Positions 2,581 to 24,163 of a DNA stretch of 24,163 nt are shown here, piece after piece. Source of the stretch: Streptomyces sp. NRRL WC-3618 (GTDB lineage Bacteria > Actinomycetota > Actinomycetes > Streptomycetales > Streptomycetaceae); NCBI RefSeq assembly GCF_001280005.1, contig NZ_LGDW01000026.1:1-24163 (forward strand). Reading direction: 5' to 3'. Both the position numbers and the translations under genes were made by a program. The notes beneath the pieces are model-generated. The model did no database searches and was not told the origin of the DNA. It worked only from the letters and a program-made list of their open reading frames with translations. Numbering within the stretch: position 1 is the first letter of the stretch; each line of letters begins with the position of its first letter.

Positions 2581-2593
2581 GCATCCCCTTTTC

Positions 2594-5505: not shown

Positions 5506-5546
5506 GTCCGGAATCTACCTAAAGCGGACGGAATATTGTGCGCAGG

Positions 5547-6275: not shown

Positions 6276-6280
6276 GTGGG

Positions 6281-6287
6281 CTCCTTT
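6281..6287 (-). promoter_or_regulatory. Strong ribosome-binding site fixing the SH3-like protein start
   Basis: On the minus strand, AAAGGAG lies 5 bases before ATG 6275. It decides between this start and an in-frame upstream codon at 6314. The 67-base gap to the histidine kinase gene also holds TAGCGT and TTAGTC -10-like hexamers on the minus strand, but I cannot fix a promoter. Confidence 0.7.
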
Positions 6288-6342
6288 GTCCGGACAGAGC
6301 TGACTAACCGCCACGCTAGGAGTGCCTCGTGTAAGACGCCCG

Positions 6343-7638: not shown

Positions 7639-8414
7639 CGGGCGCGCGCCGAGGAGGAGGCGGACGAGGATGCGGACGAGGAGGCCGAGGGGGTCGCCGG
7701 GGCAGAGTGGGCGCGCTTCGGTTTGCCGGTCCGGAGGAACTCGTCGCTGGTGAGCAGCATCGCCTTCTGGTCGGCGTCCCAGGTCCACTGGGTGCGGTAC
7801 TCGTACCCCGGGATCTGCGACGGCGAGCGGATTATCACGGCCCGGCCGGCCAGTTCCACGGCGGCCACCGCGTCGTCGTTCGCCATGATCTGCACCAACT
7901 TGTGCCGCCGGAAGGTGTACACGCGTACGGCCGTCCCGTTGCCCGGCAGCAGCCGGAAACCGAGGGCCATGTCGTCGCGGCCGTCACCGGTGAGGTCGCG
8001 GTAGTAGGCCTTGAGGACGGGGCAGGCGCCCGCACCGGAACCGCCGCTCTTCGGGCCGCACGCCGCCATCCGGGAGACCGTCCCGGCGTACGGGGGGCTG
8101 TCGGCGGTGTACAGGTCGGGATGCGCGGCGATCTCCGCCCGTACGACGGCCACCGGGTCGACCTTGTGGATGTCGTCGCCTGGCGCGGTGATGCCCTTCA
8201 CGGTCTCGGTCTCGGCCTCGCCGTAGTCCCAGGCGGGGCTGGAGGCGGCCGGCAGGTCGGGCCAGAGCCGGGCGGGGCTGACGGCGGTGGCGGTCGGCCC
8301 GGCGCCGCGCAGCCCACCGGCGTCGCCGCAGCCGGAGGTGAGGGCGGCGAGGGCCAGAGTGGTCAGGGCGGCCAGGGAGACGGAAGCGGCGCGGGAGATG
8401 CGGCTGGGAGTCAC
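7635..8414 (-). CDS. Lipoprotein translationally coupled to the sensor kinase
   Basis: A 259-residue exported lipoprotein. The N-terminus has an Arg, a hydrophobic run and a lipobox ending at C29 (ALTSGC), so the mature protein should be acylated at that cysteine and anchored outside the membrane. A DLTGDGRDDMALGF stretch (around 150-163) resembles the Ca-binding-like DxDGDGxxD loops of FG-GAP/VCBS repeats. The C-terminus is Ser/Ala-rich, low in complexity and possibly a linker. The start is GTG 8414 with AGGA-type purines upstream. The stop TGA overlaps the kinase start GTG, so the two are probably made in fixed ratio. A plausible role is as an accessory that modulates the kinase's sensor domain. 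I do not recognise a specific family. Confidence 0.82.
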   Translation of the reverse strand: MTPSRISRAASVSLAALTTLALAALTSGCGDAGGLRGAGPTATAVSPARLWPDLPAASSPAWDYGEAETETVKGITAPGDDIHKVDPVAVVRAEIAAHPDLYTADSPPYAGTVSRMAACGPKSGGSGAGACPVLKAYYRDLTGDGRDDMALGFRLLPGNGTAVRVYTFRRHKLVQIMANDDAVAAVELAGRAVIIRSPSQIPGYEYRTQWTWDADQKAMLLTSDEFLRTGKPKRAHSAPATPSASSSASSSASSSARAR

Positions 8415-8568
8415 TGGGTTCCTGCTCCTGGCCGGGGGACGTGGTGGGCGACAACCGGTCGGTCGCCCCGTAATTCACACCTTATTCGCAGGGCGGACAC
8501 GGTTGCCGCGTGGGTTGCTCCGATCGACCCGGCTGCTCCGCCCGGCCCGGCCGCTGCGCCCGTTCCGC

Positions 8569-9171
8569 CTATTCGGCCAGTTCCTCCAGCAGCCGGGCCG
8601 TGGACAGGCCCGTGCGCAGATACTCGACGAACAGGTCGTTGTGCAGGGCCCACGGGGAGCGGCGGGACCTGATCAGACGTATCGCCTCGTCGACGGTGTG
8701 CCCGTCCCGGACGAGGGCGTGCGCGACGACCAGCCCCGAACGGTTGTACCCGCTGTAACACCGGACGAGCACGGTGCGCCCGTCCTCCTGCGCGGCGCAC
8801 GCGGCCTCGGCGAGCCGGATCACGCCGGCCAGCTGGGTCCCGTCCAGCGGCCCGTCCGGGATGGCCCACACATGGTGCTCGACACCGGGATCCGGCCCGT
8901 ACCCGGGCAGTTTCAGAAGGGTCATGACCAGGTCGAACTCATCGTGCACGACGGCGAGTTCAAGTTCCCCGGGGTGCCTGGCGAACTCGTGTCCGCCCAT
9001 CCACAGCCCGGGCACGATCTCGCTCCACGGCTCGCCCGGTGCCGGTACGTCGGGCTGCTTCCTGCGGGTCCGCAACTTCGCCGCCTCCCCCACTCGGGCA
9101 CCCAACTCCGCCCTCAACTCCCTACAAAGGTAACCGGGTTCTTGCCGTCGCAGCACCCCGCCTGTTCCCAT
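8569..9171 (-). CDS. Dual-specificity-type protein phosphatase
   Basis: A 200-residue protein with the CX5R signature of cysteine-based phosphatases: C138-YSGYN-R144 followed by SGLVVAHAL. D106 in WAIPDGPLD is a likely general acid. The N-terminal part WSEIVPGLWMGG (about 49-60) is the typical opening strand of DSP-like domains. It would remove phosphate from Ser/Thr/Tyr or from a non-protein substrate; the substrate is unknown. There is no signal peptide. The start at ATG 9171 has no clear Shine-Dalgarno, and the first 45 residues precede the recognisable domain, so the true start may be internal, for instance GTG at residue 27. It is the first gene of the minus-strand run and is divergent from the NERD gene 29 bases away. 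A gap of 154 bases separates it from the lipoprotein gene. Confidence 0.83.
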   Translation of the reverse strand: MGTGGVLRRQEPGYLCRELRAELGARVGEAAKLRTRRKQPDVPAPGEPWSEIVPGLWMGGHEFARHPGELELAVVHDEFDLVMTLLKLPGYGPDPGVEHHVWAIPDGPLDGTQLAGVIRLAEAACAAQEDGRTVLVRCYSGYNRSGLVVAHALVRDGHTVDEAIRLIRSRRSPWALHNDLFVEYLRTGLSTARLLEELAE

Positions 9172-9200
9172 GGGCGTGCGGGGGAATGGGGTGAGGGTGG

Positions 9201-10004
9201 ATGAGCGGACTGCGCGTCGTACCGGCCTGGCGCCAGGGTCACGAACGGCTGTACGTGTGCCTGACGGACGGGCGGAGCGTCGCCTGGTACGACAGGGAGG
9301 CGTCCCGGGTCAACCTGCTGAGCGACGACCTCCGAGGGGACGTACTGGAGGCCCTGGCCCCGTTCCTGACGGGCCCCGTGGCGGTGGGCCCGCCCCCGGT
9401 CCCGACCCCGGCGGAACTGGCCCGCCTCTCCCTCCACCCCGACGACGACCTGGCCCCCAACCGCCCCGGCGAGGCCCTTCAGATCGCCCTGGACCGCGAC
9501 CCGGCCCCGCCCCACCGCCTCCGCCCGGACCCCCGACGACGCGCCCTGACGGCGGAACAGACGGTGGGTGACGCGCTGGAGGCGCTGGAGGGCGGGGGGT
9601 GGCACACCCTGCACTCGCTCCCGCTTCCCGGCGGCGACCGGATCCACCACCTGGTGATCGGCCCGGGAGGGCTGTACGCGGTGTACACCCTGTACGCCCG
9701 CAAGCAGCGGGTCGTGGTGACCGACCCGATGGTGACCCTGGGCCGCCGCGCCCCCCGCCCACTGCTCCGCAGGATCCGCTCGGACGCACACCGCGCCTCA
9801 CACGCCCTGACGGCGGAGGTCCACCCCGTCCTGACCCTGACGGACCCCGCCGACCTGAAGGTGACGGTCCCCCCGAGAGAGGTCAGGATTTTCCGGGACA
9901 CGGACCTGCCGGGGCTGGCGCAACTGGGGGGCGTGCTGAAACCGGCGGATGTGGAGGCGCTGCATGCGGTGGCTCGGGATCGGGGGACCTGTGGGCGGGT
10001 TTAG
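9201..10004 (+). CDS. NERD-domain (nuclease-related) protein
   Basis: A 267-residue protein. Residues 1-110 are a variable N-terminal part with a proline-rich patch. From about 119 to 190 is a NERD-like core: TAEQTVGDALEALEGGGW, then HSLPLPGGDRIHHLVIGPGG and LYAVYTLYAR. NERD domains resemble nuclease/restriction-like folds and occur in proteins thought to handle DNA, but most, including this one, have no demonstrated activity. Here the E-x-T-x-G and D-x-I-x-H-L-V-I-G-P-G-G elements are present. A direct metal-binding triad cannot be confirmed by eye. The start is ATG 9201 with GAGGGTGG just upstream. The arginine/proline-rich stretch around 9400-9540 is very GC-rich. It is convergent with the GNAT gene. 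Proximity to the ku/LigD-polymerase genes hints at DNA metabolism but proves nothing. Confidence 0.75.
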   Translation: MSGLRVVPAWRQGHERLYVCLTDGRSVAWYDREASRVNLLSDDLRGDVLEALAPFLTGPVAVGPPPVPTPAELARLSLHPDDDLAPNRPGEALQIALDRDPAPPHRLRPDPRRRALTAEQTVGDALEALEGGGWHTLHSLPLPGGDRIHHLVIGPGGLYAVYTLYARKQRVVVTDPMVTLGRRAPRPLLRRIRSDAHRASHALTAEVHPVLTLTDPADLKVTVPPREVRIFRDTDLPGLAQLGGVLKPADVEALHAVARDRGTCGRV

Positions 10005-10032
10005 GGGGCGTGGTCGGGGGGAGCGAGCTGTA

Positions 10033-10045
10033 GCACGGGCCGTGC
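10033..10045. terminator. Inverted repeat between convergent NERD and GNAT genes
   Basis: gcacgg (10033-10038) and ccgtgc (10040-10045) are perfect complements around a single base, sitting in the 43-base gap between two convergent stop codons. It could serve as a bidirectional transcription stop. The stem is short and no T run follows. Confidence 0.35.
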
Positions 10046-10047
10046 GC

Positions 10048-10587
10048 TCAAGCGAGCGGTGCCACCGTGGGCCGTAGGCCGAGCCACTGTTCGGCGTCCC
10101 AGGCCTGGAACCGTTCTATCTCCGTGAACCCCAGCTTGGCCGCCAGGCGCATCGAGGCGGCGTTGGCGGTCTGAGTGGTGAGCACCACCGGCTCGCCGGG
10201 AAGGGCGCCGTCGAACCAGTCGAGTGCCGCCGCGCACGCTTCCGCGGCGTACCCGAATCCCCACGCCCGCGGCAGGAAGAGGTAGCCGAGATCGGCCTTG
10301 CCCGTGGCAGCCGGACGGCGGTGCTCCGTTGCTCTCCTGAGCAGGATCTGGCCGATCATCGCCCCGTCGAGATCGACGACGAAGCTCCCGGGCCACCGCT
10401 CGGGCGTCCCGGGCATCTCTCGCTCGAGGTCGGCACGCGGACGGGGGCCGCCGAGGTAGGTGTGCACCTCCGGTGACGCCAGCAGCTCGATGAACGCCGC
10501 ACGGTCCTGGGCCTCGGGCGCGCGGAGCACCAGCCTCTCGGTCCTGATCGGCTCAGGCGGCCAGGCGACGGGCCCCAGATCTGACAT
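10048..10587 (-). CDS. GNAT family N-acetyltransferase (RimJ/RimL-like)
   Basis: A 179-residue protein beginning IRTERLVLRAPEAQDRAAF, the usual opening of RimJ/RimL-type GNAT enzymes. The middle GKADLGYLFLPRAWGFGYAA... carries the acetyl-CoA pyrophosphate-binding loop (R-x-x-G-x-G-x-A pattern), and ANAASMRLAAKLGF is the typical C-terminal motif (N-x-x-S-x-x-L-x-x-K-x-G-F). It transfers acetyl from acetyl-CoA to an amine; the substrate, a protein N-terminus or a small molecule, cannot be told. The start is ATG 10587. It lies 32 bases downstream of the LigD-polymerase gene on the same strand, so the two are probably co-transcribed. Confidence 0.88.
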   Translation of the reverse strand: MSDLGPVAWPPEPIRTERLVLRAPEAQDRAAFIELLASPEVHTYLGGPRPRADLEREMPGTPERWPGSFVVDLDGAMIGQILLRRATEHRRPAATGKADLGYLFLPRAWGFGYAAEACAAALDWFDGALPGEPVVLTTQTANAASMRLAAKLGFTEIERFQAWDAEQWLGLRPTVAPLA

Positions 10588-10619
10588 GCGCGCAGGCTAA
10601 CAGCCCGAGATCCGCGTGC

Positions 10620-11492
10620 TCATGGTGGCTGCGGTGGCACCAGCGGCGACAGCAGGTCCCCGTACGTATCCAGTCGGCCCTCGATGTCCCCCGCTCCGAA
10701 CATGAGTTGCCCCGGCTTCGTGCACCCCGCCACCTCCTCCCACGTCACCGGCGTCGACACCGTCGGCTCCCTGCGGGCCCTCAGGGTGTACGGCGTCGCC
10801 GTCGTTTTCCGGGCCGCGTTCTGGCTGTAGTCGACGAAGACCTTGCCGGGGCGCAGGCTGCGGGTCATGCGGTGGACGACCAGGTGGGGGAGGGCGCGTT
10901 CCGCCTCGACCGCCAGTTCCTTCGCGTACGCCGTGATCTCGCCGGACGGGGTCAGGGCCGCCGGCGCTGCCAGGAGGTGCAGGCCCTTCGAGCCCGACGT
11001 CTTCGCGTACGCCTCGATCCCGTCCGCCGCCAGTCGTTCCCGTAGCCAGAGCGCCACCTCGCAGCACTCGACGATCGTGGCCGGGTGACCGGGGTCCAGG
11101 TCCATCACCAGGCGGTCGGCCTCGCCGGGGGCGTCGATCAGCCACTGGGGGGTATGGAACTCCGTGACCAGGTTCGCCGCCCACATCAGCGAGGGCAGGT
11201 CCTGGATCAGCACCATGCGTGCCGGGCCCTCCGAGCGCGGAACGTGCGCTGTCGTGACCCAGTCGGGCGTACCCGGTGGCACGTTCTTGGTGAAGAAGAG
11301 CTGGCCGTCGGGGCCGTCCGGGTAGCGGAGGAAGGAGACCGGGCGGTCGCGCAGGTGGGGGAGGAGGGCGTCCGCGGTGGTGGCGTAGTAGTGGAGCAGC
11401 TCGCCCTTGGTGAAGCCGGTCGCCGGGTGGATCACCTTCTCCAGGTTGGAGAGAGCCACCCTTCGCCCCTCCACCTCCGTGATCGGCGTCAT
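10620..11492 (-). CDS. ligD: Stand-alone LigD-type DNA polymerase/primase domain (NHEJ)
   Basis: A 290-residue archaeo-eukaryotic primase-type polymerase, as in the polymerase module of LigD. Landmarks are NLEKVIHPATGFTKGELLHYY near the start, the metal-binding D131-L-D133 in VMDLDPG, the SGSKGLHLL loop with H172, D221 in VFVDYSQNAARKT as the likely third acidic ligand, and a C-terminal PVTWEEV motif. This module fills gaps and adds nucleotides, preferring ribonucleotides, at Ku-bound ends. Neither the 3'-phosphoesterase nor the ATP-dependent ligase module of full LigD is fused here. Separate LigD modules are known in Streptomyces, so the ligase should be encoded elsewhere. The symbol marks the family; the protein is only the polymerase part. 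ATG 11492 is divergent from ku with a 56-base shared gap. Confidence 0.92.
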   Translation of the reverse strand: MTPITEVEGRRVALSNLEKVIHPATGFTKGELLHYYATTADALLPHLRDRPVSFLRYPDGPDGQLFFTKNVPPGTPDWVTTAHVPRSEGPARMVLIQDLPSLMWAANLVTEFHTPQWLIDAPGEADRLVMDLDPGHPATIVECCEVALWLRERLAADGIEAYAKTSGSKGLHLLAAPAALTPSGEITAYAKELAVEAERALPHLVVHRMTRSLRPGKVFVDYSQNAARKTTATPYTLRARREPTVSTPVTWEEVAGCTKPGQLMFGAGDIEGRLDTYGDLLSPLVPPQPP

Positions 11493-11503
11493 ACGATGAG
11501 AAT

Positions 11504-11517
11504 CCCACGAAAGTGGG
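11504..11517. promoter_or_regulatory. Dyad in the divergent ku / LigD-polymerase promoter region
   Basis: cccac (11504-11508) and gtggg (11513-11517) pair perfectly around gaaa. The site is centred in the 56-base gap between two divergent start codons, so it could be a shared operator, or an RNA hairpin with a GAAA tetraloop in the ku leader. With one short example the choice cannot be made. Confidence 0.35.
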
Positions 11518-11548
11518 GCAAAGCCACCTCCGAAGGAAGGTTCACCTC

Positions 11549-12649
11549 GTGCGATCCATATGGAACGGCGCCATCTCCTTCGGGCTGGTCAGCATCCCGA
11601 TCAAGCTCGTGAACGCCACCGAGAGCCACTCGATCTCCTTCCGGCAGATCCACGTCGAGGACGGCGGGCGCATCCGCTATCGCAAGGTCTGCGAGGTGGA
11701 GGACCGCGAGGTGCGGGGGGACGAGATCGGCAAGGCGTACGAGGGTGCCGACGGCGCGATGATCCCGATCACCGACGACGATCTGGCGTCGCTGCCCCTG
11801 CCCACCGCCAAGACCATCGAGATCGTCGCCTTCGTGCCCGGCGACCGTATTGATCCGCTCCAGATGGACACCGCCTATTACCTCTCCGCGAACGGGGTTC
11901 CGGCCGCCAAGCCCTACACCCTGCTGCGCGAGGCGCTCAAGCGCAGCCAGAAGGTCGCCATCGCCAAGTTCGCGCTCCGGGGGCGGGAGCGGCTCGGCAT
12001 GTTGCGGGTCGTCGACGACGTCATCGCCATGCACGGGCTGCTCTGGCCCGACGAGATCCGCGACACGGAGGGTGTCGCGCCGGACGCGAGCGTCACCGTG
12101 AGGGACCAGGAACTCGATCTCGCCGACGCCCTCATGGCCACCCTCGGCGAGGTCGACCTCGCCGACCTCCACGACGACTACCGCGAAGCCGTGGAGGAGC
12201 TCATCGCCGCGAAGGCCTCCGGCGAGGAGGCGCCGCACGCCCCGGCTCCGAGCGGTGGCGGCAAGGTGCTGGATCTGATGGCCGCGCTGGAGAAGAGCGT
12301 GCGGGAGGCCAAGGAATCGCGCGGCGAGGAGGTCGCGGAGGGTACGGAGGAGGAGGGAGGGGAAGGGGAGGTGCAGTCCCTGCGTGAGCGCCGTACGGCT
12401 TCCAAGGCGGCGCCCCGGGCCACTTCCCGGGCGACCTCCCGGGCCACGCCCAAGGCCGAGGCCGGGAAGAAGTCGACCTCCACCGCGAAGAAGGCTGCCA
12501 CCAAGAAGGCCCCCGCCGCCAGGAAGTCGACCGGCACCGCCAAGAAGACGGCGAGCAAGACCAGTACGGCCAAGACCACCACGACCAAGGCCAGTACGGC
12601 GAAGAAGACCGCGGCCAAGAAGACCGCCGCCCGTAAGCGTTCGGCGTGA
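11549..12649 (+). CDS. ku: Ku, DNA end-binding protein of bacterial NHEJ
   Basis: A 366-residue homodimeric DNA end-binding protein that recruits LigD-type polymerase and ligase. The start RSIWNGAISFGLVSIPIKL is the family's hallmark, and the core (about 1-225) continues through KPYTLLREAL and the FALRGRERLGMLR strand. VLDLMAALEKSV (240-251) matches the segment after the core. The acidic stretch 259-274 is followed by a tail (about 285-366) very rich in Lys, Ala, Thr and Ser with repeated TAKK/TKK/ASK motifs, resembling histone H1-like tails. Lys-rich Ku tails are known in some actinobacteria and can bind DNA non-specifically. GTG 11549 is chosen over the in-frame GTG at 11513 because the Ku motif begins there and GAAGGAAGG lies 8 bases upstream. 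It is divergent from the LigD-polymerase gene. Confidence 0.95.
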   Translation: MRSIWNGAISFGLVSIPIKLVNATESHSISFRQIHVEDGGRIRYRKVCEVEDREVRGDEIGKAYEGADGAMIPITDDDLASLPLPTAKTIEIVAFVPGDRIDPLQMDTAYYLSANGVPAAKPYTLLREALKRSQKVAIAKFALRGRERLGMLRVVDDVIAMHGLLWPDEIRDTEGVAPDASVTVRDQELDLADALMATLGEVDLADLHDDYREAVEELIAAKASGEEAPHAPAPSGGGKVLDLMAALEKSVREAKESRGEEVAEGTEEEGGEGEVQSLRERRTASKAAPRATSRATSRATPKAEAGKKSTSTAKKAATKKAPAARKSTGTAKKTASKTSTAKTTTTKASTAKKTAAKKTAARKRSA

Positions 12650-13260: not shown

Positions 13261-16200
13261 ATGACGTCTGCCGTGCGCGCCGTTGACATGATCGTTGGAG
13301 TCACCCCTTTCGGCGAGCCCGACGCCCGGCTCGCCGCCGCCGTCAGTCGGGCGGGCGGCCTCGGGGTACTGGACCTGGGCCTCGGCGACCGAAGAGCGAG
13401 AGACGCGCTGGCGAGAATGCGCCGCCTCGCCGCCCAGGCGCCCGCCTCCGCCACGGCCCCCGGATTCCGCTACGGCGTACGCATCGGCCCGCACTGCCGG
13501 CTCACCCCCGCTGACCTGGGCGGCGACGACGGCCCCGGCACCGTGATCCTCGCCCCCGATGCCGCCGACGCCTTCCGGCCGGTCGCCGAGATCGCCGCCC
13601 GGCACCGCGTCCTCGTCGAGGTCACCGACCTGGCGGACGCCCTCGCCGCCGTCCACGCCGGTGCGCACGGGCTGATCGCCCGGGGCAGCGACGGCGGCGG
13701 CCGGATCGGCGAGCTCAGCACCTTCGTCCTGCTGCAACGGCTCCTCGCCGAACCCGGCATCGACCTCCCCGTCTGGGCACGCGGCGGCATCGGCCCCCGT
13801 ACGGCCGTCGCCGCCGTCGCCGGGGGAGCGGCGGGCGTCGTCCTCGACAGCCAACTCGCCCTGCTCGCCGAGTCGTCGCTGCCGGAGGCGACGGCTGCCG
13901 CGCTGCGCTCGATGGACGGCTCGGAGACCGTCGTCGTGGCCGGTCACCGCGTACTGCACCGGCGCGGCCCCGACGCCCCGCCCGTCCCGGCCGCTGATCC
14001 GGCGGCGGTCGCGGCGCTGCTCGGCGCCCAGGACCCGCGCACCCAACTCCTCCCGGTCGGCCAGGACGGTTTCCTCGCCGCCCGTTTCGCCGACCGCTGG
14101 GGCGACACCGCCCGCACGGTCCGCGCCCTCACCGAAGCGGTGCGGGATGTCGTAGGAGATGTCGTACGGGGTGACGGTGCCGTACGCGCGTTGCGTGCCG
14201 GGTCCCCGATGAGCCGGGCCCTGGGTACCCAACTGCCCATCGCCCAGGGGCCGATGACCCGCGTCAGCGACCAGGCGCGGTTCGCCGCCGCCGTCGCCGA
14301 GGGCGGCGCCCTGCCGTTCGTCGCGCTGGCCCTCGCCACCGGCGAGCAGACCCGGACCATGCTGGCCGAGACCCGGGAAGCCGTCGGAGACGTCCGGCCC
14401 TGGGGGGTCGGCGTCCTCGGGTTCGCACCCGAGGAGCTGCGAAACGCCCAGCTCGAAGCCGTACGGGAGTTGCGGCCCACGCACGCCATCATCGCGGGCG
14501 GCCGGCCCGCCCAGGCCGAGGCGCTGGAGCGGGCCGGGATCAGCACCTTCCTGCACGTGCCCTCGCCGGGCCTGCTGAAGCAGTTCCTGGAAGCGGGGGC
14601 CCGCCGGTTCGTGTTCGAGGGGTCCGAGTGCGGCGGCCATGTCGGACCGCGCGGCAGCTTTCCGCTTTGGGAAGCCCAACTCGCCGTCATCGAGGACTAC
14701 TTGGCCGGGGCCCCGGACAGTGACGCCGAGGGCGTCGAGGTGTTCTTCGCGGGCGGCGTTCACGACGAGCGGTCGGCCGCGATGGTCGCCGCCCTCGCCG
14801 CTCCGCTGACCGCGCGCGGTGCGTCCGTCGGCGTACTGATGGGCACCGCCTATCTGTTCACCGAGGAGGCCGTGGCCTGCGGAGCGGTCCAGCCGCTCTT
14901 CCAGCGCCAGGTCGTCGACGCGACCAGTACCGCGCTGCTGGAGACCGCCCCCGGTCACGCCACCCGGTGCGTGCCCAGTCCGTTCAGCGACAACTACCGT
15001 GACCTCGAAGCGAAGTTGAGGGCGAGCGGGGTGCCCGAGCGGCGGATCTGGGAGGAACTGGAGCGGCTCAACGTCGGGCGGCTGCGGATCGCCAGCAAGG
15101 GCATCGAACGGGATACCGAGGGCGAGTTGGCGGCCGTGGACGAGCAACGGCAGCTCACCGAGGGCATGTTCATGGCCGGAGAAGTGGCCGTGCTGCGCTC
15201 GGCGGTCACGACCGTCGGCGCGCTGCACCACTCCGTGGCGGAAGGCGCCGCCGACTTCCTCACCGGGCGGGCGGCAGAGCTGCGGGAGCCGCTCGGTGTG
15301 CGTCCGCCCGAAGAGGCCCCGGCGCCCGCACCCCTCGACGTCGCCGTGGTGGGCATGGCCTGCATGTTCCCGGACGCGCCCGACCTCGCCGCCTTCTGGG
15401 CGAACGTCCTCGGCGGTCACGACGCCGTGGCGGAGGTGCCGGCCGACCGCTGGGACCCCTCCGTGCACTACTCGGCCGAGGACGGGGACGGGGGCGTCAC
15501 GCCCTCCAAGTGGGGCGGCTTCCTGCCCCGCATCCCCTTCGACCCGCTGTCGTACGGCATTCCGCCCACCTCGCTCGGCAGCATCGAGCCCGTCCAGCTG
15601 CTGGCGCTCGAAGCCGCCCGGCGGGCCCTGACGCACGCCGGATACGGGGAGCGGGGGCGGGAGTTCGACCGCTCGCGCACCTCGGTCGTCTTCGGCGCGG
15701 AGGCGGGCAGCGACCTGTCCAACGCGGGCACGCTGCGGGCCGTGCTGCCTTCCTACTACGGCAAGGTGCCGGACGGGCTCGTCGATCAGCTGCCCAGGCT
15801 CACCGAGGACTCCTTCCCCGGCATGCTCTCCAACGTCATCTCCGGCCGGATCGCCAACCGGCTCGACCTCGGCGGTGCCAACTACACGGTCGACGCCGCG
15901 TGCGCCTCGTCCCTGGCCGCCGTCGACGTGGCCTGCAAGGAACTGGTGGGCGGGACCAGCGACGTCGTGCTGTGCGGCGGCGCCGACCTGCACAACGGCA
16001 TCAACGACTACGTCCTCTTCTCCTCCGTGCACGCGCTGTCCCCGACCGGGCGTTCCCGCGCCTTCGACAGCTCGGCGGACGGGATAGCGCTGGGGGAGGG
16101 CGTCGCGTGTGTCGTGCTGAAGCGGCTGGCGGACGCCGAGCGCGACGGCGACCGGATCTACGGGGTCATCAAGGGAGTCGGCAGCTCCAGTGACGGGCGC

Positions 16201-19200
16201 TCCCTCGGACTGACGGCTCCCCGGCCCGAGGGGCAGCGGGCCGCGCTGCAACGGGCGTACCGCAACGCCGGGGTGTCGCCCGCCGAGGTCGGGCTCGTGG
16301 AGGCGCACGGCACGGGAACCGTGGTTGGTGACCGTACCGAACTGACCATCCTGGGCGAGGTGTTCAGCGAGGCCGGGGCCAAGCCGGGGGGTGTCGCCCT
16401 CGGTTCGGTCAAGTCGCAGATCGGCCACACCAAGTGCGCCGCCGGCCTGGCCGGACTCATCAAGACCGTCCTCGCCCTGCACACCGGGGTCAAGCCGCCC
16501 ACTCTCCACGTCAGCGAGCCCAACTCCGCCTGGGAGGCAGGCAGCAGCCCGTTCGTGTTCCACGGACAGGCGCGGCCCTGGGCGACACCGGCGCACGAAC
16601 GCGTCGCGGGCGTCAGCGCGTTCGGCTTCGGCGGCACCAACTTCCATGTGGTGCTGGAGGCCTACGCCGACTCCGCCCCGCCTGCGCACACACTGGACGC
16701 CTGGCCCGCCGAACTGTTCACCTTCCGGGCCGCCGATCCGGCAGGGGCCCGGCGCGCCGTCGAGGATGTGCTGAAGCCGGCCCAGGACGAGCAGTCCTCC
16801 TGGCGGCTGCGTGATCTCGCGCTCGCTGCCTCCCGCCGCTCCGACGCCCGGCACGAACCCGTGCAGATCGCGGTCGTGGCGACGGACCCGGCGGAACTCG
16901 TCGGGCAGTTGCGGCGGGCGCTGGCGGGTGAGCACGATCCGCGGGCCGGCATCCACCTCGCACGGAACCAGCAGGAGACCCCGGGCCAGGTCGCCTTCCT
17001 CTTCCCCGGGCAGGGCAGCCAGCGGACCGGCATGCTCGCCGACGTGTTCGTCGCACTCCCCGAACTCCAGTACTACCTGGAACTGGGCCGCGACCACGCC
17101 GACGTCCTCTACCCGCCCACCCCCTTCGACGACACCACCCGCGACCGCCAGCACGCCGCCCTCACCGACACCCGGGTCGCCCAGCCCGCCCTGGGCATCG
17201 CGGGTCTCGCCGCGCACGCCCTGCTCACCACGGCGGGCGTACGCCCGGACATGGCCGCCGGGCACAGCTACGGCGAACTCGTCGCCCTCAGCGCGGCCGG
17301 CGCCCTCGACCCGGAAACCCTCCTCGCGCTGAGCGCCCAGCGCGCGACCGCGATCCTCTCGGCCGCCGGTGACGCGGGCGACGACCCGGGCACCATGGCG
17401 GCGGTGTCGGCGGGCGCCGAGGACGTCACGGCCGCCCTGCGCGCCGCCGAAGCGCCCGCCTCCGTCGTCGTCGCCAATCACAACTCGCCCAAGCAGACGG
17501 TCATTTCGGGGCCGACGGAGGCGGTCGACGAGGCCGTACGGTTGCTGCGCGCCGCCGGACTGGGCGCGAAGCGCATCCCCGTCGCCTGCGCCTTCCACAG
17601 CCCGCTGGTCGCCGGGGCCGGCGAACGCTTCGCCGCCGTGCTGGCCCAACAGCCCCTGCGCGCACCCGAGTTCACGGTGTGGTCCAACCGTACGGCCGCC
17701 CCGTACGGCGCCGACGCGGACGCGGTGCGTGCCGAACTCGCCGCCCAGATCGGCGCCCCGGTCGCCTTCGTCGCCCAGATCGAGGCGATGTACGAGGCGG
17801 GCGCCCGCATCTTCGTCGAGGCCGGGCCAGGGTCCGTACTGACCCGTCTGGTCGGCCAGATCCTCGGCGACCGCCCCCACCGCACCGTCGCCTGCGAACC
17901 GCGTCCCGACAGCGGACTGCGCGGCTGGCTGGACGCGCTGGCCCAACTGGCCGTCGCGGGACAGCCGGTGCGCACCGGATGGCTCTTCCACGGGCGCGAC
18001 GCCGTCGACGCGATGCGCACCAAGGCACCCAAGCGCCCCGGCTGGACGGTCGACGGCCACCTGGTCCGCACCGCCGCCGGCGAACTCCTCCCCGGTGCCC
18101 TCGCACCGGCCCGACGCGTAGTGGAGACGACGACAGTGACCGCGAATCACCAGGACGCCACCCCGGGCGCTCACGGCAGGGACGCGCTGATCTCCGAGTT
18201 CCTGCGCACCAGCCGCGAGATGGTCGCCGCCCAACGGGACGTACTCCTCACGTACTTCGGCGCGACACCGGGCCAGTGGACACCCGCGCCCGCAGCCCCG
18301 GAGCCCCTGGGGGCGGCAGAGTCCCAGTTCCAGCAGGCCGCGCAGCTGCCCGCCCCCACGTACCCGCCCGCGCTCTACGCCGTACCCGCGCCTGTCCCCG
18401 CCCCGGCCGCCGTCGTGGGGTTCACGGAGGCGGATGTGCTGGGGGTGGTGCTGGAGATCATCAGTGAGCGGACCGGGTATCCGGTGGACATGATCGAGCC
18501 GGATCTTGATCTGGAGGCCGATCTGAGTATCGACTCGATCAAGCGGGCTGAGATTGCTGGTGAGTTGGCGCAGCGGCTCGGGGTCGGGGGTGGTGGTGAC
18601 CTCACCGTGCTTGCCGACGCCGAGCTGGAGGAGCTCGCCAAGGCCCGTACGGCGGCCTCGGTGACGGCATGGCTGGCGGCGCGGCTCGTAGGGCCGGCCG
18701 AAGCCGAGGAAGCGTCGGCTCCGCCGCAGGCACCGCGACCGGCAGCGGCCGGTGAGGCCGAGGCGCCCCCGGAGGTCATCGGCGAGGCACCGAAGCGCTT
18801 CCAGTTGCGGCCCGTCCTGCTGGAGCAGCAGGACGGGAACGTGACCGGGACCGGCGACCCCGCCGCCGTCCTGGCTGGGAAGCGGTTCGTGGTCCTCGGC
18901 GACGACGACGCGGGGGAGGTTGCCCGCGAGGTGGTGGCGAGGCTCGCCGGGCACGGCGCCGACGCGGTGGTCCTGGGGCCCGAGCACCTGCTGACGGAGG
19001 CGGACGGACCAGTCGACGGAGTGCTGTACCTCGACCCGCTGGCCGCCTCCCGGCCGCCGGTGCTGCCCGACGCGTTCCCCGTCCTCAAGGCGGCCCTCGG
19101 ACTCGGCCCGCGCCAGCTGTTCGCCGTACGAGTGACTGCGGAAGGCGCCCCGGACGGCGCCGAGTTGAGGTCTGCCGGTCTGCACGGGCTCTTCCGGACC

Positions 19201-20292
19201 GTGGCCCGGGAGTACCCGGAGACGGACGCGCGGATCATTGACCTCACCCTCCCTGAGACCGGTGCCGCCGCTGTCGCCGACGCGCTGCTCGGCGAGCTGC
19301 TCGCCCCCGACCGCACCCCGGTCGTCCTGCGAACCGCCGCCGGGCGCCACGGACTTGAGCTGGTCGAAACCCCCCTCGGCGCCCTCGGAACCACCGGCGC
19401 GGGACCCGCCGGGGACGGTGCCGCCGAGGCCGCCGCCCTCGGACTGGACCGGGACAGTGTGGTGCTGCTGGTCGGCGGGGCGCGGGGCATCACCGCGAAG
19501 TTCGCCGCCGCACTGGCATCCGCCTCCCGTTGCCGGATCGAACTGCTCGGCCGGACACCCGCACCGGACGGCCCGGAGGACGCGGCCACGGCAACCGCCC
19601 GTACCCGGACCGAACTCCGCGCCGCCCTCGCCGCCCGGGGCGGGCTCACCCCCGCCGCGATCAGCCGCGAGGCCGAACTCCTGCTCGCTCAACGGGAGAT
19701 CACCGCCACCCTCGCCGAACTCGAAGCCCTGGGCAGCCCGGCCCGCTACCACTCCGTCGACTTCAGGGCACAGGACGCGGCGCTCCAGGCCGTGAAGGAG
19801 ATCCACGCCGAACACGGCCGCCTCGACGGGGTCGTCTACGCGGCCGGGGTGATCGAGGACCGGCTGATCGCCGAGAAGACCACCGAGTCCTTCCAGCGTG
19901 TCTACGGGACGAAGACCACCGGCGCCGAAACACTGCTCGCGGCGCTGGAGCAGCTCCCCAACCCCCCTGCTTTCGCGGTCCTGTTCGGCAGCATCTCCGC
20001 CGTCCTCGGCAACCGGGGCCAGGTCGACTACGCCGCCGCCAACGACGCGCTCCAGACCCTCGGCGCCGCCTGGGCGGCCCGGTCCGGCCAGCGGGCCCTG
20101 ACCGTGCACTGGGGGCCATGGGCGCCGACCGGCGGCCACACCGGCATGGTGACCCCCGAACTCGGGCGCGAGTACGCCCGCCGTGGGGTCAGGCTCATCG
20201 ACCCCGAGGAGGGCACGGCCGCGTTGCTGCGCGAACTGGCCTGGGGCGAGGAGTCGGCAGGCGCCGTCGTCTACACCTCGTCGGGCTGGTAA
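13261..20292 (+). CDS. PUFA-synthase-like / hglE-type PKS: NMO-NMO-KS-AT-ACP-KR
   Basis: A 2343-residue iterative synthase. Domains in order: NMO/FabK-like barrel 1 (about 8-280), with GSDGGGRIGE, so R148 where the family has His; barrel 2 (about 321-660), with GSECGGHVG and H460 intact; KS (693 to about 1135), with C881 in DAACASS, H1016 in EAHGTGT and H1056 in IGHTKCAAG; AT (about 1241-1550), with PGQGSQ, S1336 in GHSYGE and H1446 in CAFHS; a helix EFLRTSREMVAAQRDVLL before the carrier; one ACP (about 1721-1800), with S1759 in DLSIDSIKR, the PUFA-type signature; and KR (about 1810-2290), with VGGARGIT, Y2257 and N2261. Condensation, malonyl loading, ketoreduction and probably FMN-dependent enoyl reduction are thus in one chain. 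There is no DH; that is in the next gene, 5 bases on. Product unknown. ATG 13261 is chosen for its GGAG. Confidence 0.93.
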   Translation: MTSAVRAVDMIVGVTPFGEPDARLAAAVSRAGGLGVLDLGLGDRRARDALARMRRLAAQAPASATAPGFRYGVRIGPHCRLTPADLGGDDGPGTVILAPDAADAFRPVAEIAARHRVLVEVTDLADALAAVHAGAHGLIARGSDGGGRIGELSTFVLLQRLLAEPGIDLPVWARGGIGPRTAVAAVAGGAAGVVLDSQLALLAESSLPEATAAALRSMDGSETVVVAGHRVLHRRGPDAPPVPAADPAAVAALLGAQDPRTQLLPVGQDGFLAARFADRWGDTARTVRALTEAVRDVVGDVVRGDGAVRALRAGSPMSRALGTQLPIAQGPMTRVSDQARFAAAVAEGGALPFVALALATGEQTRTMLAETREAVGDVRPWGVGVLGFAPEELRNAQLEAVRELRPTHAIIAGGRPAQAEALERAGISTFLHVPSPGLLKQFLEAGARRFVFEGSECGGHVGPRGSFPLWEAQLAVIEDYLAGAPDSDAEGVEVFFAGGVHDERSAAMVAALAAPLTARGASVGVLMGTAYLFTEEAVACGAVQPLFQRQVVDATSTALLETAPGHATRCVPSPFSDNYRDLEAKLRASGVPERRIWEELERLNVGRLRIASKGIERDTEGELAAVDEQRQLTEGMFMAGEVAVLRSAVTTVGALHHSVAEGAADFLTGRAAELREPLGVRPPEEAPAPAPLDVAVVGMACMFPDAPDLAAFWANVLGGHDAVAEVPADRWDPSVHYSAEDGDGGVTPSKWGGFLPRIPFDPLSYGIPPTSLGSIEPVQLLALEAARRALTHAGYGERGREFDRSRTSVVFGAEAGSDLSNAGTLRAVLPSYYGKVPDGLVDQLPRLTEDSFPGMLSNVISGRIANRLDLGGANYTVDAACASSLAAVDVACKELVGGTSDVVLCGGADLHNGINDYVLFSSVHALSPTGRSRAFDSSADGIALGEGVACVVLKRLADAERDGDRIYGVIKGVGSSSDGRSLGLTAPRPEGQRAALQRAYRNAGVSPAEVGLVEAHGTGTVVGDRTELTILGEVFSEAGAKPGGVALGSVKSQIGHTKCAAGLAGLIKTVLALHTGVKPPTLHVSEPNSAWEAGSSPFVFHGQARPWATPAHERVAGVSAFGFGGTNFHVVLEAYADSAPPAHTLDAWPAELFTFRAADPAGARRAVEDVLKPAQDEQSSWRLRDLALAASRRSDARHEPVQIAVVATDPAELVGQLRRALAGEHDPRAGIHLARNQQETPGQVAFLFPGQGSQRTGMLADVFVALPELQYYLELGRDHADVLYPPTPFDDTTRDRQHAALTDTRVAQPALGIAGLAAHALLTTAGVRPDMAAGHSYGELVALSAAGALDPETLLALSAQRATAILSAAGDAGDDPGTMAAVSAGAEDVTAALRAAEAPASVVVANHNSPKQTVISGPTEAVDEAVRLLRAAGLGAKRIPVACAFHSPLVAGAGERFAAVLAQQPLRAPEFTVWSNRTAAPYGADADAVRAELAAQIGAPVAFVAQIEAMYEAGARIFVEAGPGSVLTRLVGQILGDRPHRTVACEPRPDSGLRGWLDALAQLAVAGQPVRTGWLFHGRDAVDAMRTKAPKRPGWTVDGHLVRTAAGELLPGALAPARRVVETTTVTANHQDATPGAHGRDALISEFLRTSREMVAAQRDVLLTYFGATPGQWTPAPAAPEPLGAAESQFQQAAQLPAPTYPPALYAVPAPVPAPAAVVGFTEADVLGVVLEIISERTGYPVDMIEPDLDLEADLSIDSIKRAEIAGELAQRLGVGGGGDLTVLADAELEELAKARTAASVTAWLAARLVGPAEAEEASAPPQAPRPAAAGEAEAPPEVIGEAPKRFQLRPVLLEQQDGNVTGTGDPAAVLAGKRFVVLGDDDAGEVAREVVARLAGHGADAVVLGPEHLLTEADGPVDGVLYLDPLAASRPPVLPDAFPVLKAALGLGPRQLFAVRVTAEGAPDGAELRSAGLHGLFRTVAREYPETDARIIDLTLPETGAAAVADALLGELLAPDRTPVVLRTAAGRHGLELVETPLGALGTTGAGPAGDGAAEAAALGLDRDSVVLLVGGARGITAKFAAALASASRCRIELLGRTPAPDGPEDAATATARTRTELRAALAARGGLTPAAISREAELLLAQREITATLAELEALGSPARYHSVDFRAQDAALQAVKEIHAEHGRLDGVVYAAGVIEDRLIAEKTTESFQRVYGTKTTGAETLLAALEQLPNPPAFAVLFGSISAVLGNRGQVDYAAANDALQTLGAAWAARSGQRALTVHWGPWAPTGGHTGMVTPELGREYARRGVRLIDPEEGTAALLRELAWGEESAGAVVYTSSGW

Positions 20293-20297
20293 GCGAC

Positions 20298-23200
20298 ATG
20301 ACGGATCGTCACGCAACGGCCGTGCCGGTGGCCATCGTCGGCATGTCGGTGCTGCTGCCCGGCGCCCCCGGCCTCGACGCCTACTGGCAGAACCTGCTCG
20401 CCGGCACGGACGCCATCACCGAGGTGCCGGACGGGCGTTGGGACGCGGACGCCTACTACCGGCCGGACTCCGCCGGTGACCGTGCCGTCGCCGACCAGGT
20501 GTACTGCCGGCGCGGAGGGTTCGTGGACGCACTGGCGGAGGTGGAGGTGACCCGGTTCGGGATCATGCCGAACTCCGTCTCCGGCACCGAACCCGACCAG
20601 CTCATCGCCCTCAACGTGGCCGCCGCCGCCCTCGCCGACGCGGGCGGCGACGACCACCTCCCCGACCGCCACCGCATCGGCGTGGTCCTCGGCCGGGGCG
20701 GCTACCTCACCCCCGGACTCGTCCGGCTCGACCAGCGGGTCCGTACAGCGAGCCAACTCGTCCGAACGCTGGGCGAGTTGCTGCCGGACCTTGATCCCGG
20801 CCAACTCGACCGCGTCCGTACGGCGTTCACGGACCGCCTCGGCCCCGACAGCCCCGAGTCGGCGATCGGACTCGTCCCCAACCTTGCCGCCTCCCGGGTC
20901 GCCAACCGGCTCGACCTGCGCGGACCCGCGTACACCGTGGACGCGGCCTGTGCCTCCTCGCTGGTCGCCGTGGACCAGGCGGTGAACGAACTCGCGTCCG
21001 GGCGCTGCGACCTGATGCTGGCCGGCGGAGTCCACCACTGCCACGACATCACCCTGTGGAGCGTCTTCTCGCAGCTGCGCGCCCTCTCGCCCAGCCAGCG
21101 CATCCGCCCCTTCCACCGGGGCGCCGACGGCATCCTGATCGGTGAGGGCACCGGCGTCGTCGTCCTCAAGCGCCTCGCCGACGCCGAGCGCGACGGCGAC
21201 CGGATCTACGCCGTCATCCGGGGCACCGGCGTGGCCAGCGACGGCCGCGCCGCCGGTCTCGTCAACCCCGACCCCGGCGGCCAGACCCACGCCGTACGCC
21301 AGGCCTGGCAAGCCGCCGGTCTCGACCCCGCCCAGCCCGGTTCCCTCGGCCTCCTGGAGGCCCACGGCACGGCGACCCCCGCCGGTGACGCCGCCGAACT
21401 CGCGACGCTGGCCGAGGTGTTCGGGCCCAGGGAAAGCGGCGACGCGGATGGCGGTGGCCCGGCGGTGATCGGCTCCGTGAAGTCGATGATCGGGCACACC
21501 ATGCCCGCCGCCGGGGTCGCGGGCCTGGTCAAGGCCGCCCTCGCCGTCCACCACGGCATGCTCCTGCCCACCCTCCACTGCGACGACCCGCACCCGGCCC
21601 TCGCGGCCACCCGCTTCCGCCCGCTGGACAAGGCGGCGCCCTGGGAGACAACGGCCGAGCAGCCGGTACGTCGGGCGGCGGTCAACGCGTTCGGGTTCGG
21701 CGGGATCAACGCGCATGTGGTGATCGAGGAGGCGCCGGGAGCGCGTACGGGGAAGGCAGCGCGTAGGGGGAAGGCGGCGCGTATGGGGGCGGCGTCCCCG
21801 GCGCCGACGGTCACCGTTGTCGAGCCCGAGCGCGTCCTGCTGCTCGCCGCCGACACCCCCGAGAGCCTCGCCGCCCTCCTGGACGCCGACGACACGGCCG
21901 TACTCGCCGCCGGTCTCGACGCCACCCGTACGCATCAGCGGGCCGGGCGTACCCGGCTCGGCATCGTCGACCCGACCGCGAAGCGGCTCACCCTGGCCCG
22001 CCGGACGGTCGCCAAGGGTCGTACGTGGCACGGCCGTAGCGACGTCTGGTACCGCCCCGGGCCTCTACAGGCGGGCGCGGCCCACGAGTTGGGTGGCCTG
22101 GCCTTCGTCTTCCCCGGACTCGAAGGCGACTTCGAGCCCCGCGTCGACGACATCGCCGCCCACTTCGGTCTGGACGGTGTCCTCCCGGCCGGAGAACGGG
22201 CCGAGGTCGGGGACGTGGGCCGGCACGGATTCGGGGTCGTCGGGGTCGGGCTGCTCCTCGACCGGGCGCTGCGCCGCATGGGCGTCGTCCCCGACGCGGT
22301 CGCCGGGCACAGCGTCGGCGAATGGACGGCGATGACGGCCGCCGGACTGTACGACCAGGACGAGGTCGGCGCCTTCATGGCTACCTTCGACCCCGACACG
22401 GTGAGTGTGCCGGGGCTGGCGTTCGGGGCGCTCGGCGCGCCCGCCGAACGGGTGCTCGCGGCGCTCGCCGAGGAGGGCTGGGGGGACGCCGGCATCGTGC
22501 TCTCGCACGACAACGCGCCCGGCCAGTCGATGGTGTGCGGCCCGCAAGAGGCGGTCGAGGAGTTCGTCCGGGCGTTCCGTGCCCGGGGGGTGCTCAGCCA
22601 GGTGCTGCCCTTCCAGTCCGGCTTCCACACACCGATGCTGGCGCCCTACCTGGCCCCGATCGAGCAGGCCGCGCACCGCTTCCGGCTCCGGCCGCCGACG
22701 GTTCCGGTCTGGTCGGGGACCACGGCGGCACCCTTCCCGGCGGGCGAGTCGGCGGTGCGTGAACTGTTCGTACGGCATCTGCTGGAACCGGTGCGTTTCC
22801 GGCAACTCGTCGAGGCGATGTACGCGGCCGGACACCGGACCTTCGTCCAGGTCGGCACCGGCCAGCTCGGCTCCCTCATCGGCGACACGCTGGCGGGCCG
22901 CGATCATCTGGTCGTCGCCGCCAACTCCCCGCACCGCGACGGGTTGGCGCAACTCCGGCGCGTGGCAACGGCGTTGTGGACGACAGGGAGGGAGACGGCA
23001 CCCGCACTGCCGTCGCCCGCCCTCGGCAACCCCACCGGCGGGCCCACTCCCCACACCGCCGGTCCCTCCGACCGCTCCACGGACCCGGCCCACGCAACGG
23101 CCTCCGTGCGGGGGGACCGGCCTTCCAACCGCCCACCGGTCCGCCTCGACCTGGGCGGCGCCCTCATATCCCTCGACGAACCGACGCTCACCCGACTGCG

Positions 23201-24163
23201 GGCGGACCTGAGTCTGGGGCGGGGTCTGGCGGGGGGTGCGGCCACTGGGGCGCCGGGGACGGCGTCTCCGGCGTCGGTGCCGAGTCAACGGGACCAATCC
23301 GCAGGGTTGTCGGGAGTCACCGGGGCGCCCGTTTCTGGGGGTCTGCCCGGCGGGGGAGGCCCCTCGCCGGTGACCGCTCCGGCGGCCGTCTCGGCGCAAC
23401 GGGGAGGTGCCGCAGGGGTGTTGGGTGCCACCGAGGCTCCCGGTCCGGTGGGGCTGCCGGGTGTCGGCGACCCCTCGGCGGTGGCCGCTCGGGCGGCGGT
23501 CTCGACCCAACGGGGCGCTCTTGACGGGGCGTTGGGTGCCATGGAAACTCCATATGCCCCCGGGCTGACCTCGTCCCTGGACGCCCTCGCCAGCCGTTTC
23601 CCCGCCGCCGCCGAACTCGGCGCCCTGCTGCGGGAGACGGCGGACGCCGCAGCCGAGCTGATCGGCGCGGGCCACCGTCGTCCGGGTTCGGCCGCGGCCT
23701 ATGCGGGCGACGCCACGCAGGGTCCGGGCGGCCCCACCGGGAGCACCGGATTGCCCGCCCCGACCCGCCACACGCCCACCGGGCTGGACCGACGGCCCGC
23801 AGCGACGCCCGCCGGTGTCTCCTCCCAGCCCACACGACACGCGTCCGTGCCACCGACCGGGGCCTCCCGCCAGGCTTCCGTGCCGCCCACGAATGCATTC
23901 CCCCAGGTCGCACCCCCACCTGCCGGGGCTTCACGCCAGCCGGGGGCCACCCCACCACCCCCCTGGCGCACCACCGTCCACGTATCCCCCGACACCATGC
24001 CGTACCTCCTCGACCACTGCTTCTTCCCGCAGCGTCCAGGCTGGCCGGACGTGTCCGACCGATGGCCGGTGGTCCCGGCGACGACGATCGTGCAGCACAT
24101 GGTCGAAGCCGCCGAGCAAGCGGCGGAGCGGACGGCCCCGCATCACCACCGCCACCCCTACCC
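20298..24163 (+). CDS. PUFA-synthase-like PKS, KS-AT-linker-DH, cut by the window edge
   Basis: The frame from ATG 20298 stays open to the right edge (1288 full codons), so the gene is partial. KS (about 10-475): C218 in DAACASS, H356 in EAHGTAT and H400 in IGHTMPAAG, all intact. AT (about 602-900): S672 in GHSVGEW and H777 in SGFHTPM, but the usual PGQGSQ is PGLEGD. Residues about 910-1220 are a low-complexity Gly/Ala/Pro/Ser linker holding 37-residue repeats. At about 1222 a hot-dog dehydratase begins, with a likely catalytic H1240 in LLDHCFFPQ and DRWPVVPATTIVQHM. It probably condenses and dehydrates together with the preceding protein. It begins 5 bases after that gene's stop with no clear ribosome-binding site, suggesting translational coupling. 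No chain-length-factor domain lies between KS and AT, unlike PfaC. Confidence 0.92.
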   Translation, partial: MTDRHATAVPVAIVGMSVLLPGAPGLDAYWQNLLAGTDAITEVPDGRWDADAYYRPDSAGDRAVADQVYCRRGGFVDALAEVEVTRFGIMPNSVSGTEPDQLIALNVAAAALADAGGDDHLPDRHRIGVVLGRGGYLTPGLVRLDQRVRTASQLVRTLGELLPDLDPGQLDRVRTAFTDRLGPDSPESAIGLVPNLAASRVANRLDLRGPAYTVDAACASSLVAVDQAVNELASGRCDLMLAGGVHHCHDITLWSVFSQLRALSPSQRIRPFHRGADGILIGEGTGVVVLKRLADAERDGDRIYAVIRGTGVASDGRAAGLVNPDPGGQTHAVRQAWQAAGLDPAQPGSLGLLEAHGTATPAGDAAELATLAEVFGPRESGDADGGGPAVIGSVKSMIGHTMPAAGVAGLVKAALAVHHGMLLPTLHCDDPHPALAATRFRPLDKAAPWETTAEQPVRRAAVNAFGFGGINAHVVIEEAPGARTGKAARRGKAARMGAASPAPTVTVVEPERVLLLAADTPESLAALLDADDTAVLAAGLDATRTHQRAGRTRLGIVDPTAKRLTLARRTVAKGRTWHGRSDVWYRPGPLQAGAAHELGGLAFVFPGLEGDFEPRVDDIAAHFGLDGVLPAGERAEVGDVGRHGFGVVGVGLLLDRALRRMGVVPDAVAGHSVGEWTAMTAAGLYDQDEVGAFMATFDPDTVSVPGLAFGALGAPAERVLAALAEEGWGDAGIVLSHDNAPGQSMVCGPQEAVEEFVRAFRARGVLSQVLPFQSGFHTPMLAPYLAPIEQAAHRFRLRPPTVPVWSGTTAAPFPAGESAVRELFVRHLLEPVRFRQLVEAMYAAGHRTFVQVGTGQLGSLIGDTLAGRDHLVVAANSPHRDGLAQLRRVATALWTTGRETAPALPSPALGNPTGGPTPHTAGPSDRSTDPAHATASVRGDRPSNRPPVRLDLGGALISLDEPTLTRLRADLSLGRGLAGGAATGAPGTASPASVPSQRDQSAGLSGVTGAPVSGGLPGGGGPSPVTAPAAVSAQRGGAAGVLGATEAPGPVGLPGVGDPSAVAARAAVSTQRGALDGALGAMETPYAPGLTSSLDALASRFPAAAELGALLRETADAAAELIGAGHRRPGSAAAYAGDATQGPGGPTGSTGLPAPTRHTPTGLDRRPAATPAGVSSQPTRHASVPPTGASRQASVPPTNAFPQVAPPPAGASRQPGATPPPPWRTTVHVSPDTMPYLLDHCFFPQRPGWPDVSDRWPVVPATTIVQHMVEAAEQAAERTAPHHHRHPY
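21741..21791 (+). repeat. 18-bp imperfect tandem repeat in the KS-AT linker
   Basis: gcgcgtacggggaaggca is followed by a near copy at 21759-21776 and a partial third at 21777-21791. It encodes ARTGKA-ARRGKA-ARMGA, a basic patch directly after the KS domain of the second synthase, probably a slippage product in a tolerant linker. Confidence 0.75.
23274..23567 (+). repeat. 111-bp (37-residue) imperfect tandem repeats in the AT-DH linker
   Basis: Three in-frame units start at 23274, 23385 and 23496; the third is about 24 residues long. Each opens with a S/AVxxQR motif (SVPSQR, AVSAQR, AVSTQR), followed by GxLGxxxAP and GLPG elements, and the spacing is exactly 37 residues. The copies have diverged, so the duplication is not recent. 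The function is probably a flexible spacer between AT and the dehydratase. Confidence 0.8.

Follow-up and report, generated by a model that had tools for sequence, protein, structure and literature searches.

A conserved Streptomyces glycosyltransferase operon built around a two-subunit synthase of probable ArsA/ArsD type

The stretch of DNA considered here, called the window throughout, is the whole of contig C26 (24,163 nucleotides) in the draft genome of Streptomyces sp. NRRL WC-3618 (9.34 Mb, 499 contigs). From position 13261 onwards it encodes two large proteins of polyketide synthase (PKS) type, PKS1 and PKS2, the second of which is cut by the contig end and appears to continue on contig C117. 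A first-pass annotation of the window had described them as a two-gene polyunsaturated fatty acid (PUFA)/hglE-like synthase and had seen its novelty in an enoyl reductase (ER) fused to the N-terminus. The domains are real, but the fusion has a precedent in a characterised protein. We consider the locus to be, probably, an actinobacterial branch of the ArsA/ArsD iterative type I synthases that would supply a long, mostly saturated chain for a glycolipid. The genes and domains are listed below, where KS stands for ketosynthase, AT for acyltransferase, ACP for acyl carrier protein, KR for ketoreductase, DH for dehydratase, PPTase for phosphopantetheinyl transferase and NMO for nitronate monooxygenase.

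13261..20292, forward strand: PKS1, ArsA-type, ER1-ER2-KS-AT-ACP-KR; start ATG at 13261, frame opening with GTG at 13231
13261..14040 (borders approximate), forward strand: ER1, first FabK/NMO-type barrel, catalytic His replaced
14185..15285, forward strand: ER2, FabK-type enoyl reductase barrel with ECGGH motif
15337..16512, forward strand: KS1, active-site motif DAACASS
16996..17913, forward strand: AT1, malonyl-type, Arg 25 residues past the active Ser
18448..18585, forward strand: single in-chain ACP, LSIDSIKR
19459..20124, forward strand: KR domain (Pfam)
20289..24163, forward strand: PKS2, incomplete, KS2-AT2-linker-N-terminal half of DH, stopping at the contig end; start GTG at 20289 or ATG at 20298
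20325..21581, forward strand: KS2 with its catalytic Cys, hence no chain-length factor
22203..22856, forward strand: AT2, GHSVGE present, malonyl Arg absent
23970..24163, forward strand: N-terminal half of a PKS-type DH, LLDHCFF, the rest on contig C117
Contig C117 (locus L102), reverse strand: second half of the DH (PF14765) and PPTase, 409 amino acids
Contig C117, reverse strand: discrete ACP, 109 amino acids
Contig C117, reverse strand: alpha/beta hydrolase, 275 amino acids
Contig C117, reverse strand: glycosyltransferase (GT), UDPGT/EryCIII-type, 404 amino acids
Contig C117, reverse strand: methyltransferase (MT), 373 amino acids, start chosen by us

The protein entry for PKS1 has 2343 amino acids, in agreement with the ATG start, and Pfam places nitronate-monooxygenase-type domains first, followed by KS, AT, a single PP-binding domain and KR. 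Motifs were tallied in 77 PKS1 homologues and 69 PKS2 frames; some of the latter are truncated, so that motif misses there mean little, and the window's own entry among them is a frame that begins upstream of the gene. The KS1 active-site motif, the Arg that marks AT1 as malonyl-type and the ER2 motif His are each kept in 77/77 homologues. Among the structures compared ER2 is nearest to FabK, and its FabK fold with the GGH catalytic His was confirmed. At the catalytic-His position of ER1, Arg occurs in 62/77 homologues and His in 2/77; since the VIA-align rows span only model residues 218-675, the fold of this first barrel rests on the model, an NCBIfam match and profile comparison. The DSIKR motif of the ACP is present once in the window, as the first-pass annotation had noticed, and once in 67/77 homologues. 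Two copies in 10/77 rule out a single ACP as a family trait.

The GTG start of PKS2 overlaps the PKS1 stop. KS2 retains its catalytic Cys in 68/69 homologues and leads into AT2 with no second KS-like domain, in line with the earlier statement that the second protein has no visible chain-length factor (CLF). In AT2 the malonyl-Arg position is without Arg in 69/69 frames (F 60, L 5, Y 2, V 1, H 1). PfaB, also without this Arg, is reported as a terminal, long-chain acyltransferase (PMC12895367). The DH motifs are recognised in the PKS2 frames at varying rates, the His by a strict pattern in 44 and by a looser one in 65, the Asp in 61. Between AT2 and DH lies a long, low-complexity linker rich in Pro, Gly and Ala (window 22926-23948), for which a weak collagen-like score was seen in locus L066, and PKS2 length varies greatly among loci. 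Contig C117 was found with the DNA downstream of PKS2 in locus L019, which it matches at 91% identity over about 4.7 kb; the PKS1 of L019 is likewise 91% identical to that of the window. The genes beyond the right edge of the window, to which the first-pass annotation had pointed, can be read as the rest of the DH, the PPTase, ACP, hydrolase, GT and MT. The dehydratase of the operon is PF14765, as seen in the part on C117 and in the complete PKS2 of a relative, neither of which matched a FabA-type DH/isomerase (DH/I). The DH-PPTase region gave no PDB match.

The relationship of PKS1 to ArsA carries the interpretation. ArsA of Azotobacter vinelandii is 44% identical to PKS1 (736/1681 columns, from ER1 into AT) and shares with it tandem N-terminal FabK-type barrels ahead of KS-AT-ACP-KR; motif III of its ER1 is likewise without His, with W in its place. 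The same PKS1 architecture is found in Beijerinckia indica, whose pBIND02 locus surfaced in a tblastn search of plasmids; a protein search with its homologue led to the entry 'Type I fatty acid synthase ArsA [Azotobacter vinelandii CA]'. Shulse and Allen (2011) grouped Beijerinckia with A. vinelandii as Type P (PMC3098273). The Beijerinckia locus encodes a protein with two NMO domains, KS, AT, two ACPs and KR, a separate PS-DH-PPTase protein and two proteins that bear the annotation KS III C-terminal domain and that we read as type III PKSs. Its Type P partner is a PKS-type DH with a PPTase, like the end of PKS2 (31% identity over 86%); the likeness to ArsD runs via this Beijerinckia protein only. 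As a trait of ArsA the fused reductase is already known, and the prediction for the chain becomes a long and saturated one. ArsA is described as making C23-C25 fatty acids, on which the type III PKSs ArsB and ArsC then draw (PMC4824345), and Shulse and Allen give C22 to C26 for ars chains (PMC3098273).

The two barrels were also scored in an Ars-like set of 120 sequences. The ER2 His was located in 116, with R in one and no position found in three, and the ER1 motif was found in 73, two of them with His, and not located in 47; a strict pattern recovered the KS Cys in 72/120. In a FastTree phylogeny of 56 KS domains, KS1 groups with ArsA (0.985), opposite the KS2 clade (0.961), which falls with the outgroups. 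These were three modular KS and one FabF-like sequence, with no named PfaA or HglE. Without locus L120 the KS1 group has a support of 0.996; loci L013 and L014 were offered to the tree and none of their domains passed. The results given here likewise draw nothing from loci L002, L003, L015, L098-L101, L103 and L105-L113. The systems also differ. The ars operon contains type III PKS genes, whereas none lies near the window synthase: the Beijerinckia type III protein has no match in 80 loci, the window, L102 and the distant loci L116-L121, while the positive control L130 matches at 71%. In the window type an additional KS2-AT2 precedes the DH-PPTase in one protein, and a discrete ACP, a hydrolase, a GT and mostly an MT are added.

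The first-pass filing as PUFA/hglE-like was weighed by models, motifs and descriptions. There are similarities to a true polyunsaturated fatty acid (Pfa) synthase: of the NCBIfam models, PKS1 matches TIGR02813 (PfaA) best, the KS-AT-ACP-KR order and the DSIKR motif are PfaA-like, AT2 lacks the malonyl Arg as PfaB is described to do, and one FabA-type domain is encoded elsewhere in the genome. The TIGR02813 score (889.1 bits) nevertheless stays under the cut-off of 1010.1, and PfaD (TIGR02814) has no match in the draft genome, with controls matching in 3/14 genomes, one of them above cut-off. Pfa synthases have a separate PfaD, multiple ACPs, a CLF and a FabA-type DH/I, whereas the operon has a fused FabK-type ER, one ACP in PKS1 instead of four or more in tandem, and a single PKS-type DH. 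The idea that the fused reductase is itself a PfaD was rejected, the ER being FabK-type. Taken together with the PPTase motifs, a Pfa synthase appears extremely unlikely.

These PPTase motifs were scored with our own patterns, P1b being (F/S)NxSH. In the operon's own PPTase, on C117, P1b' is present, and P1b and P0 are both missing; among 58 homologues tested (of the 69), P1b' is found in 56, one of which also has P1b, three also carry P0, and two have none. In the scheme of Shulse and Allen, P1b' belongs to Types M-T and P1b to Types A-L, which include PUFA and Hgl (PMC3098273). In combination with the single PKS-type DH and the FabK-type ER, the motifs point to the Type M-T side, away from Types A-L, so that ArsA is the better reference. 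The part of the earlier description that called this a lipid-type iterative synthase and not an ordinary PUFA cluster stands, given the lack of PfaD and CLF, the one ACP and the PKS-type DH. A characterised protein of the same architecture does exist for PKS1, in ArsA and in the Beijerinckia homologue; PfaD had no match in the draft genome, and no CLF and only one DSIKR-type ACP were seen in the window.

An HglE/HglC-type system producing a glycosylated long-chain diol combines a long-chain lipid synthase with a GT, HglT being the glycosyltransferase step of heterocyst glycolipids, and the GT is fixed in the operon of close relatives of the window. We still regard such a system as very unlikely, as there is no CLF, a DH is present, the PPTase is without P1b, and the fused FabK-type ER matches ArsA instead. 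HglC is described as KS-CLF-AT and the Hgl set (Type F) as without DH/I domains, with another PPTase motif class, by Shulse and Allen (PMC3098273). Similarity extends to two other groups. The window synthase resembles Type M of the same authors in its actinobacterial hosts and an associated PPTase with P1b', a likeness drawn from their description. These secondary lipid synthases come from Frankia, Streptomyces avermitilis, Actinosynnema and Renibacterium, and their product was unknown to Shulse and Allen in 2011 (PMC3098273). The Type M proteins they name are not among the best 120 of 5107 and the best 120 of 5045 matches. Enediyne polyketide synthases (PKSE) are iterative too, with an ACP between AT and KR and a fused PPTase as seen here, but they are single proteins without an enoyl reductase, whereas the window has an ER and spreads its activities over two proteins. 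Finally, a Kutzneria cluster was called similar to omega-3 PUFA synthase genes in a 2014 genome paper (PMC4210621).

What is new at this locus is its conserved operon setting. Relatives were taken as the best 80 of 291 loci, a set that leans toward close relatives, and 65 of them could be tested for operon order, the remaining 15/80 being too short beyond PKS2. By tblastn, PKS2 is followed by ACP, hydrolase and GT in this order and on the PKS strand in 65/65 testable loci, and by an MT further downstream in 55/65. Counts from our own open-reading-frame picker (hydrolase 57, GT 44 and MT 32 of 81 sequences) were discarded, as the picker missed genes that tblastn recovered (65, 65 and 55 of 65). 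Beyond the operon few neighbours recur in the gene families compared. The guess of a new lipid metabolite made from the window sequence is strengthened by this conserved GT operon outside it. Similarly, the earlier view of a widespread actinobacterial group with no known product holds: with a threshold of 239 bits, the reductase query has matches in 50 of the 150 genomes sampled in the genus (this one counted; a few matches sit on frames cut by contig ends), and we found no characterised product for this cluster type in the open-licence literature. Fattiviracin/cycloviracin-type glycolipids were considered as candidate products and set aside, and the text on the sphingolipid PKS SgaA of P. fluorescens (PMC12134224), which contains neither 'domain' nor 'enoyl', gave no basis for a comparison. 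Among the matches listed, the closest named relatives of PKS1 are Streptomyces proteins, at most 97% identical over residues 1-690.

In the phylum, the reductase query reaches at least 500 bits in 10/396 genomes, again with this one counted, and six loci outside the genus (L116-L121) were drawn from the nine further strong matches, with 46-57% identity in the reductase region. Parts of the operon order persist there: the ACP and the hydrolase are present in 6/6, the GT in 4/6 at about 49-51% identity, and the MT in 1/6. This conservation bears on the proposal that GT, MT and hydrolase are not lipid tailoring enzymes, but serve self-protection or have a different substrate, while the synthase yields a free acid or a starter, for example for a type III PKS elsewhere. 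The GT does match macrolide-inactivating and self-immunity models below cut-offs, contig C177 does carry a type III PKS-like gene, and the scarcity of recurring neighbours outside the operon would fit as well. Against it stand the constant order and strand in every testable locus and the GT retained in distant ones, and we judge it unlikely. Two observations on tailoring genes may be added. In L117, two tandem frames match the operon hydrolase (14722-16273), and in L066 an LPG_synthase_TM-type membrane protein (PF03706; 27336-28379, reverse strand), possibly a lipid transporter or flippase, adjoins the methyltransferase gene, with similar frames at L019 and L058.

The distant loci also vary in architecture. 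KS2 is missing from L116, which keeps AT2-DH-PPTase, ACP, hydrolase and GT, and from L118, where a single frame of 3355 amino acids (2023-12090) runs from a tandem reductase through KS-AT-KR-AT-DH-PPTase and ACP, hydrolase and GT are again kept; KS2 as a required part is thereby ruled out. In L120 it is PKS1 that carries the DH, and an ACP closes PKS2, so the subunits can share the work in different ways. A related synthase on the Rhodobacteraceae plasmid pSC52_2 (L131, 14002-28618), accompanied by an AT-DH-PPTase protein, a methyltransferase and a dioxygenase of TauD/TfdA type, represents another branch. In this context a variant of the pathway deserves attention in which the synthase is the same and the chain keeps one or more hydroxyl, keto or trans-ene groups because reduction stays incomplete in a terminal cycle run by KS2. 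Such a hydroxyl would then bear the sugar, as in a 3-glycosyloxy fatty acid or a polyol-like lipid. The near-invariant KS2 Cys, the separation of the KS2 clade from KS1 and ArsA, the macrolide type of the GT and the rearranged L120 are consistent with it; macrolide-type GTs commonly glycosylate hydroxyls. The two loci without KS2 that keep the rest speak against it, since KS2 is then not needed for the whole pathway, and we hold this variant to be possible but doubtful.

For the ArsA/ArsD-type synthase that we favour, the following working scheme can be proposed. PKS1 would run a repeated cycle in which AT1 loads malonyl, KS1 condenses and KR reduces; the PKS-type DH of PKS2 would dehydrate, and ER2 would reduce the enoyl group with FMN. 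ER1, a barrel without catalytic His, most likely partners ER2, so that the two would stand in for a FabK dimer. Activation of the ACPs is expected to fall to the PPTase that closes PKS2. AT2 most likely moves the finished long chain, probably onto the discrete ACP, and KS2 may contribute a final unit or one particular cycle. Release or transfer of the acyl group would be the task of the alpha/beta hydrolase, the UDP-sugar-type GT would attach a sugar, and the MT would methylate in most strains. We infer the pairing of the two barrels, what AT2, KS2 and the discrete ACP do, and the identity and site of the sugar and the methyl group; chain length and saturation are extrapolated by analogy with ArsA, and the step from synthase to glycolipid is drawn from gene order.

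Several points weigh against this interpretation. What sequence shows is the domain make-up, the relationship to ArsA, the active-site residues and the conserved gene order; chain length is borrowed from a protein at 44% identity, and chains that are hydroxylated or only partly reduced would also fit the activities present. The continuity of C26 and C117 rests on synteny with L019, by whose coordinates about 200 bases seem to be missing. The Ars-type locus of Beijerinckia is without KS2 or AT2 in the two proteins scanned, so the final steps are different from those of the window system. The 19.9 kb retrieved for L120 and for L121 contain no GT, and glycosylation is therefore not universal across the phylum. 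The matches of the GT to drug-inactivating models (macrolide-inactivating, self-immunity), below cut-offs as they are, count here too. Elsewhere in the genome there are the type III PKS-like gene on C177 (81.7 bits), a weak match of this kind on C414, and one FabA-type dehydratase domain (PF07977, 44.6 bits) beside other KS genes on C451. With these, a phenolic fate of the chain or an isomerase acting in trans is conceivable; they lower our confidence slightly and raise by a little that in the reading of GT, MT and hydrolase as unrelated to the lipid.

The remaining genes noted in the window are of other kinds. An AurF-type p-aminobenzoate N-oxygenase homologue (154-1083, reverse strand; PF11583, 312 bits) lies far from the lipid operon. 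Adjoining the operon is a divergent non-homologous end-joining pair, a LigD primase-polymerase (10620-11492, reverse strand) and Ku (11513-12649, forward strand); a Ku gene is also found upstream of PKS1 in L066.

Clusters of this type are common in the genus, no product was found for them in the open-licence papers searched, and the link to ArsA predicts a long saturated chain and not a PUFA. The conserved GT operon points to glycolipids as the place to look for the product, which could give a product to clusters now loosely filed as hglE- or PUFA-like. As a tentative and more speculative extension, Actinomycetota may share an ancient glycolipid made by an ArsA-type synthase whose dead and live FabK barrels act as a heterodimer, with KS2-AT2 setting the length and handing the chain to a dedicated ACP for glycosylation. 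Such a compound might be a structural or stage-specific envelope lipid, like the alkylresorcinols of Azotobacter cysts, and not an antibiotic.

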